NCBI RefSeq assembly: GCF_012769535.1
Contig: NZ_CP046565.1
Span: 186,001-250,000 of the forward strand
Reading direction: 5' to 3'
From: Methylococcus geothermalis
GTDB taxonomy: Bacteria > Pseudomonadota > Gammaproteobacteria > Methylococcales > Methylococcaceae
Length of the DNA stretch: 64,000 nt
In this document: one piece after another, positions 45,104 through 48,699 of the stretch
Layout of the letters: each line of letters begins with the position of its first letter
Numbering within the stretch: position 1 is the stretch's first letter
Made by a program: the position numbers and the translations under genes
The notes under the pieces: generated by a model
The model's database searches: none
What the model saw: the letters and a program-made list of their open reading frames with translations, nothing else
Told to the model about the DNA's origin: nothing

Positions 45104-45183
45104 CCGCGCCGAGGGGCGCTGCGACGGCCCGCATCGGGGCCGCCAGGCTCGGCGAGGCAACTTGGTTTTCCAACGGCGCTCTG
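45104..45183 (+). ncRNA. S-adenosylhomocysteine (SAH) riboswitch
   Basis: The leader of ahcY contains the SAH aptamer pattern. P1 is CGCCGAG (45107-45113) with CTCGGCG (45148-45154). The conserved core GGGGCGCTGCGACGG follows P1; P2 is CGGCCC (45125-45130) with GGGCCG (45137-45142). A small stem TTGG/CCAA follows P1, and GGGCGC (45114-45119) can pair with GCGCTC (45176-45181) as the pseudoknot helix. The known class turns on ahcY when SAH accumulates. Placement directly upstream of ahcY (start 45261) agrees. Confidence 0.88.
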
Positions 45184-45260
45184 TTTATCTCCACCGGTCG
45201 CGGCTGCCGATGGATAATCAGAGCTTTCCGCACTGGTGGAGAACCGACGAAGAGGTATCT

Positions 45261-47705: not shown

Positions 47706-48566
47706 TCAGGCGGCGTCCGCGAGAGCGTTCCGCAGCTTCTTCATCGCGCTGTTTTCGAGCTGGCGAATGCGCTCGGCGGAGACGTTGTAGCGCGCCGCCA
47801 GATCGTGCAGCGTCAGCTTATCCTCGCTGAGCCAACGGCTGGCCACGATGTCCCGGCTGCGGTCGTCCAGTTGGCCGATGGCTTCGTGCAGCTTCTCCTG
47901 CTGGCGGTTGTCCCATTCGCTGTGCTCGATGAGCTGGGCCGGATCCGCGCCTTCCTGCTGGAGATAATGGATGGGCGCGTGGCCTTCGCGGTCGTCGACG
48001 TCCTCGTCGCCGTGCGCCTCTAGCGCCATGTCCGGGTTGTTCAGCCGGTGTTCCATCTTGTAGACGTCCTCGACGTCCACGCCCAGTTCCGCAGCCACCG
48101 CGGCGGCTTCTTCGGGGTTGAGCCAGCCGAGCCGGTTCTTCATCTTGCGCAGATTGAAGAACAGCTTGCGCTGTGCCTTGGTGGTGGCGATCTTCACGAT
48201 GCGCCAGTTCTGGATGATGAATTCGTGGATCTCCGCCCGGATCCAGTGCACTGCGAACGAGACCAGCCGCACGCCGACGTCCGGATCATAGCGCTTCACC
48301 GCTTTCATCAGGCCGATATTACCCTCCTGGATCAGGTCGGCCAGCGGCAGGCCGTAGCCGAGATAGCCGCGCGCGATGTAGGCCACGAACCGCAGGTTCG
48401 ACAGCACCAGGCGCCTTGCGGCCTCCAGGTCCTGCTCGTCACGGAAGCGGATGGCCAGCTCCCGCTCCTCGTCGGCGTCCAGACGCGGCAGGCGGTTCAC
48501 TGCGGCGAAATAATCGTCGATGGAACCCAGCGGCAGATTGGTCGGGAGTGTCAATTCTTGAGTCAT
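47706..48566 (-). CDS. rpoH: RNA polymerase heat-shock sigma factor sigma-32
   Basis: A 286-residue sigma70-family factor. Region 2 reads NLRFVAYIARGYLGYGLPLADLIQEGNIGLMKAVKRYDPDVGVRLVSFAVHWIRAEIHEFI; the RpoH box QRKLFFNLRKMK follows, a hallmark that separates RpoH from other sigma factors. Region 4 helix-turn-helix (LTLHDLAARYNVSAERIRQLENSAMKKLR) is at the end. Start ATG 48566 (MTQELTLPTN) is family-consistent. A perfect CIRCE operator stands 29 bases upstream of the start, so HrcA probably represses it. Confidence 0.96.
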   Translation of the reverse strand: MTQELTLPTNLPLGSIDDYFAAVNRLPRLDADEERELAIRFRDEQDLEAARRLVLSNLRFVAYIARGYLGYGLPLADLIQEGNIGLMKAVKRYDPDVGVRLVSFAVHWIRAEIHEFIIQNWRIVKIATTKAQRKLFFNLRKMKNRLGWLNPEEAAAVAAELGVDVEDVYKMEHRLNNPDMALEAHGDEDVDDREGHAPIHYLQQEGADPAQLIEHSEWDNRQQEKLHEAIGQLDDRSRDIVASRWLSEDKLTLHDLAARYNVSAERIRQLENSAMKKLRNALADAA

Positions 48567-48595: not shown

Positions 48596-48622
48596 TTAGC
48601 ACTCGACCCATTCGAGTGCTAA
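48596..48622. promoter_or_regulatory. CIRCE operator upstream of rpoH (HrcA binding site)
   Basis: TTAGCACTC (48596-48604), nine-base spacer, GAGTGCTAA (48614-48622): an exact match to the CIRCE consensus TTAGCACTC-N9-GAGTGCTAA. On the minus strand the downstream arm runs into TAAAAT, a possible -10 hexamer, so HrcA bound here would block rpoH transcription. hrcA itself is not in the window. Confidence 0.92.
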
Positions 48623-48699
48623 AACTAGCGCAAGTTCCTCACCTCGACAAGTCCTGCCAGCTTCACTGGCGCCGTCGCGGCGGCCTGATCGAACGTGGA

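Follow-up and report, generated by a model that had tools for sequence, protein, structure and literature searches.

Control of chaperone operons by HrcA and its operator CIRCE follows the Bacillus subtilis paradigm, with sigma70-type promoters. Here we asked what such an operator does in front of the gene for the heat-shock sigma factor itself, as seen in a 64,000-nucleotide stretch of the Methylococcus geothermalis genome (the window), and which promoter it would govern. The gene 3′ of the operator was identified as RpoH by a profile search (TIGR02392, 413.4 bits, cut-off 323.1) and nothing else in the genome (3.37 Mb) scored above the cut-off; among the relatives listed, the best was Methylococcus capsulatus str. 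Texas, whose RpoH is 95% identical. The rpoH start was set at 48566, because most of the relatives listed align from or near residue 1 of the resulting 286-aa form. A longer frame of 301 aa, opening with an ATG inside CIRCE (48611), was rejected, as the relatives begin to align only around the later ATG. Elsewhere in the window, a SAH riboswitch (RF01057, 65 bits) was found at 45105-45188 on the plus strand, between metK-like and ahcY-like frames recognised by eye; a metF-like frame comes next and is convergent with rpoH.

The operator is a perfect CIRCE, TTAGCACTC-N9-GAGTGCTAA (in full, TTAGCACTCGACCCATTCGAGTGCTAA), with 18 of 18 fixed positions matching, and it was the sole match in the whole window at up to three mismatches, where shuffles led us to expect 0.01. 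A gap of 29 bases separates it from the rpoH ATG on the minus strand (Table 1). A preliminary description of this DNA had claimed an exact HrcA operator match, this distance to the sigma-32 start and a candidate -10 overlapping CIRCE, all of which were borne out; for the -10 we distinguish a weak sigma70-like TAGTTT from a better-supported sigma-E-type TCGAA. Judged by the sequence comparisons described below, the CIRCE at rpoH is very likely a genuine operator that is in use.

Table 1 Recognised and predicted features around the start of rpoH (window positions)
Feature	Position	Strand	Remarks
CIRCE, HrcA operator, 9-9-9 palindrome	48596..48622	.	0 mismatches
Putative sigma-E-type -35, GGAACTT	48632..48638	minus	invariant in 4 aligned Methylococcus; position tied to CIRCE in other families
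Putative sigma-E-type -10, TCGAA	48611..48615	minus	N16 spacer to the -35; loop base 3 is A in 41/47 gap-9 matches
Expected sigma-E-type transcript start (predicted)	48604..48606	minus	from the usual -10 to +1 spacing
Possible sigma70-like -35, TTGTCG	48645..48650	minus	weak match; TTGYCG in 4 Methylococcus sequences
Possible sigma70-like -10, TAGTTT	48622..48627	minus	17 nt after TTGTCG; same hexamer at the hrcA CIRCE; TAGGGT in one close locus (L006)
rpoH, sigma-32, 286 aa	47706..48566	minus	TIGR02392 413 bits, cut-off 323

Both components that the preliminary description had proposed looking for in the genome, an hrcA gene and further CIRCE sites, were found. There is one copy of hrcA (TIGR00331, 301.7 bits, cut-off 197.2), and its presence disposes of the objection which that description had raised to its own proposal, namely a genome without hrcA. 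At up to two mismatches, CIRCE occurs genome-wide at three sites, before rpoH (0 mismatches), hrcA (1) and groESL (1). A GrpE-like frame follows hrcA, and the third CIRCE precedes GroES-like and GroEL-like frames, all three frames being recognised by eye from their translations. Judged by eye, the hrcA CIRCE lies behind a perfect TTGACA, with TAGTTT at the site, and the groESL CIRCE has the promoter TTGACA-N16-TATCAT. The rpoH and hrcA sites have GCTAGTTT in common (window 48622-48629; L002 1494-1501), immediately bordering CIRCE; the stretch may be a promoter edge that was copied, or else a sigma70 -10 used at both sites.

A recurrent GGAACTT was noticed upstream of CIRCE in relatives. In the window it opens a putative sigma-E-type promoter, GGAACTT-GCGCTAGTTTTAGCAC-TCGAA, with an N16 spacer, which reads from 48638 to 48611. 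Because this promoter runs into CIRCE, the operator would itself supply the promoter -10: the TC of TCGAA closes the left CIRCE arm, and its GAA occupies loop bases 1-3. The -10 form TCNNA and the spacer of 15-17 nt used throughout follow the E. coli rpoH promoter and the sigma-E consensus. The genome encodes RpoE (316 bits, cut-off 236), with RseA and MucB/RseB genes behind rpoE (RseA_N 26.7 bits, just above the cut-off of 24; MucB_RseB 185 bits), and no loose match to the sigma-E motif was seen before this rpoE. Within the window genome alone, GGAACTT-N15..17-TCNNA was not enriched (5 places vs 13 for the pattern read backwards), so the case for the motif is a comparative one.

For this comparison we used 81 rpoH sequences, consisting of the window and the best 80 of 449 relatives, a sample biased to close ones because the best were taken. 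CIRCE (≤2 mismatches, within 200 nt) was present in 75 of the 81, 41 times without a mismatch, 26 times with one and 8 times with two. GGAACTT (≤1 mismatch) lies 9 nt before CIRCE in 26 of 74 distinct sequences, the mean per offset being 0.73. When the 74 CIRCE-bearing sequences were classified, 31 had the -35 at gap 9 (≤1 mismatch), 17 had it elsewhere together with TCNNA, and 26 had neither. The last group includes several Gallionella and Nitrotoga relatives, and by eye 8 of its members carry GAACTT or GAACTC at gap 7 with TC after 16 nt, the final A being absent. Among the 19 closest loci (L005-L023), the motif is missing in five (L007, L008, L010, L018 and L022); in L007 and L008, TTGATT or TTGATC-N18-TACTAT stands in its place.

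Two other promoter types were considered and rejected. The CTTGAA of a sigma-32 promoter before rpoH is not fixed relative to CIRCE, with at most 4 of the 74 sequences having it at any one offset (≤1 mismatch). Sigma70 as a general rule fared no better, since TTGACA and TATAAT gave no comparable upstream peak in the 74 sequences; the 19 TTGACA-like matches that share an offset stem from the CIRCE arm (TTGGCA).

We also sampled the class evenly, drawing 94 genomes of which no two shared a family label, and this yielded 85 rpoH genes in 84 genomes (one of the 85, in G059, is partial and under the cut-off, and was counted as present). CIRCE (≤2 mismatches) was found at 55 of the 85 rpoH genes, at 52/60 where hrcA was found vs 3/25 where it was not (Fisher 7e-11). 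The three exceptions are in G005 (62% complete), G038 (81%) and G016 (97%). Presence of hrcA, rpoE and rpoH was scored from one HMM search each, some genomes being incomplete, and a few genes below the curated cut-off were scored as present (hrcA of G067; rpoE of G024, G046, G069 and G070). The preliminary description held such wiring to be reported mainly for some beta- and gammaproteobacteria. In that form the statement was not supported, given the 52/60 in the class draw and a case in print for Geobacter sulfurreducens (PMC545781).

The sigma-E motif behaved similarly towards its own regulator. It adjoins CIRCE, defined as lying within 50 nt before CIRCE or inside it, in 42/48 CIRCE-bearing rpoH genes of the draw from genomes with RpoE vs 0/7 from genomes without found RpoE, and it is absent at the remaining 6/48 rpoH genes with both CIRCE and RpoE. 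The reverse strand gave 0/48 and shuffling gave a mean of 0.19 and a maximum of 2 in 500 runs. The associated Fisher value of 3.9e-6 was computed on 43 + 5 vs 0 + 7, thereby including G019, where the motif lies past CIRCE.

Several individual loci deserve description. At four of them (L200 in G064, L220 in G089, L212 in G075 and L224 in G042) the best rpoH CIRCE has three mismatches, and at three of these the sigma-E motif is retained, a pattern that would agree with the operator decaying before the promoter was lost. In G010 (L249), where no RpoE was found, a second CIRCE with one mismatch lies directly before the rpoH CIRCE, as if the operator had been doubled. The MAG SKS1.bin42 has two rpoH loci (L033 and L037), whose CIRCE sites show one and two mismatches, and both loci have GGAACTT 10 nt before CIRCE.

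Searching 274 genomes for GAACTT-N0..30-CIRCE without mismatch gave 68 matches in 67 genomes, 47 of them at gap 9. As many as 64 of the 68 are at rpoH in the correct orientation, and 58 of these 64 have TCNNA at N15-17. In the other four, GAACTT lies on the strand opposite to rpoH (G040 and G163), at a groESL CIRCE where TTGACA overlaps GAACTT (the second site of G249), or at a clpB-like gene (G072). At gap 9, 41/47 matches have A at loop base 3, a position not fixed by the CIRCE consensus; at base 1 there are 28 T and 14 A, and positions 2 and 4-9 are mixed (n=47). Where the -35 is shifted (gap ≤5 or ≥20), TCNNA still occurs at N15-17 in 10/12 matches (shuffle mean 0.89, maximum 5, 2000 runs), the two without a coupled -10 being the groESL site of G249 and the wrong-strand reading in G040. 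The putative -10 is thus seen to shift together with the putative -35.

With the gap fixed at 9 and one mismatch allowed, GAACTT-N9-CIRCE returned 79 sites in 79/274 genomes, 78 at rpoH and one at a clpB-like gene; the 78 include one in G093 that was matched on the wrong strand (on the right strand its gap is 10), where rpoH runs off the end of the contig (82 bits). At hrcA loci, none of the 18 CIRCE sites has the sigma-E motif, a control drawn from the best 30 of 65 hrcA matches, of which 18 had CIRCE, and covering 45 nt before CIRCE rather than 50. CIRCE sites at groESL were covered across genomes as matches of the GAACTT-CIRCE searches. The sole exception among the 79, in G072 (L166, G072:C8, ~1505-1546), is a composite site before a gene recognised by eye as ClpB-like; the rpoH of that genome has no CIRCE (best 6 mismatches).

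Each half of the composite therefore tracks the presence of its own regulator, as the -10 tracks the -35, and the same predicted overlapping switch appears to recur in dozens of bacterial families. We consider it likely that HrcA blocks a sigma-E-type rpoH promoter whose -10 and start lie inside CIRCE, thereby joining envelope and cytoplasmic stress. From the sites, their spacing and conservation, and the hrcA, rpoE, rseA and rseB genes, all read from sequence, we infer binding, steric repression, inducing signals and logic as follows. At rest, CIRCE-bound HrcA would cover the -10 and +1 and exclude RNA polymerase. Misfolded cytoplasmic protein would draw GroE off HrcA, as in the GroE titration model set out in PMC6032397, so that HrcA would be released and the promoter open, while envelope stress would free sigma-E from RseA and allow it to transcribe rpoH. 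Expression of rpoH would therefore be maximal when cytoplasm and envelope both report damage, for example upon heat. A weaker sigma70-like promoter may use the same operator.

The proposal in the preliminary description that a repressor is wired to rpoH fits with the CIRCE, the hrcA gene, the two other sites and the conservation in 75/81 sequences, but it missed the sigma-E-type promoter. With a promoter of that type under the operator, loss of HrcA alone need not raise rpoH fully, and the rise of the whole sigma-32 regulon upon HrcA inactivation is a prediction of that description.

Alternatively, TTGTCG-N17-TAGTTT could be a plain sigma70 promoter repressed through CIRCE, like the promoters of hrcA and groESL, in which case GGAACTT would be incidental in Methylococcus geothermalis. 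The promoters at those two CIRCE sites would agree with this (at hrcA, the same TAGTTT behind its perfect TTGACA; at groESL, TTGACA-N16-TATCAT), TTGYCG and CGCTAG are kept in four Methylococcus sequences, and L007 and L008 look sigma70-driven. However, by eye the window hexamers are weak (4/6 and 3/6), the -10 becomes TAGGGT in L006 while GGAACTT is unchanged, and the link between the sigma-E motif and CIRCE holds in many families, with the motif found in 0/7 CIRCE-bearing genes without found RpoE, making a sigma70 promoter alone an unlikely account. Two real overlapping promoters, both shut by one HrcA, with sigma70 providing basal and sigma-E stress expression, would be compatible with the sigma-E/HrcA switch that we favour, and we rate this arrangement as a genuine possibility, if somewhat below an even chance. 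Methylococcus keeps each of the two hexamer pairs at least in part, and both -10s lie inside or against CIRCE, although the two starts are predictions from sequence.

The remaining explanations do away with a DNA operator or with function altogether. An inverted repeat near a start codon could work at the RNA level, by forming a hairpin or a thermometer in the transcript, but folds of two likely 5′ ends did not surpass those of shuffled sequences (z -0.07 and -0.15), the sole Rfam match in the window at the gathering threshold is the SAH riboswitch elsewhere, and CIRCE presence tracks hrcA. Moreover, a transcript from the predicted sigma-E start would begin close to the right CIRCE arm, so that an mRNA hairpin would be incomplete, and we regard a role in RNA as very improbable. 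That the site is a chance occurrence or a relic without function we hardly credit at all: no supporting points were found, and against it stand the 0.01 matches expected in the window and the retention of CIRCE in 75/81 rpoH sequences.

Concerning the origin of the sigma-E/HrcA composite, we tentatively suggest, with the balance tipping only slightly against it, that it was the ancestral control of rpoH in Gammaproteobacteria sensu lato (betas included), with an operator half-site fused as the -10, and that the E. coli sigma-E promoter is a remnant left after HrcA loss. If so, both compartments once controlled the heat-shock sigma factor through a single site, and the composite would give a simple account of the sigma-E promoter at enteric rpoH. 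If the switch operates as proposed, rpoH outside the enteric model would integrate envelope and cytoplasmic damage at one promoter.

In E. coli K-12, rpoH is preceded by GAACTT-N16-TCTGA, which ends 93 nt before the ATG and which we take to be rpoHP3. As in the window, the form is GAACTT-N16-TC-N2-A, with the same spacing and before the same gene, but CIRCE is absent (the best candidate over 244 nt has 8 mismatches), and E. coli was not among the control genomes matched in the HrcA profile search. In the accessible part of PMC3490749, E. coli rpoHP3 is called sigma-E-dependent, and SigE of Bordetella bronchiseptica is described as transcribing rpoH (fam) in vitro, from a sigma-E-like promoter immediately 5′ of rpoH, as here; neither HrcA nor CIRCE is mentioned there, and we compared this promoter by its description. 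For Xylella fastidiosa there are studies of the RpoH and RpoE regulons, cited in PMC3224663, which may already contain parts of the present picture.

On the operator side, a CIRCE before rpoH is in print as a prediction for Geobacter sulfurreducens (PMC545781). As here, it is perfect and near the rpoH start (position -51), and the other CIRCE targets are groESL and hrcA-grpE-dnaK-dnaJ, whereas the available part of that paper mentions no sigma-E promoter at rpoH. For beta-, gamma- and epsilonproteobacteria it refers to Permina and Gelfand 2003, a study that may already list rpoH for the group treated here. Among the matches listed in the open-access literature, we found no description of a CIRCE/sigma-E interlock at rpoH, and with most subscription papers outside this scope we call the interlock new only provisionally. 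Taken singly, HrcA at rpoH was known as a prediction and sigma-E at rpoH from experiments in E. coli and Bordetella, whereas here they would share bases, in many families. The new part is the overlap of CIRCE with a sigma-E-type promoter, HrcA wiring at rpoH being common and half known. Compared with the chaperone operons of Bacillus subtilis, the operator, the repressor and, presumably, GroE titration are the same, whereas the target here is a sigma factor gene with a putative sigma-E-type promoter.
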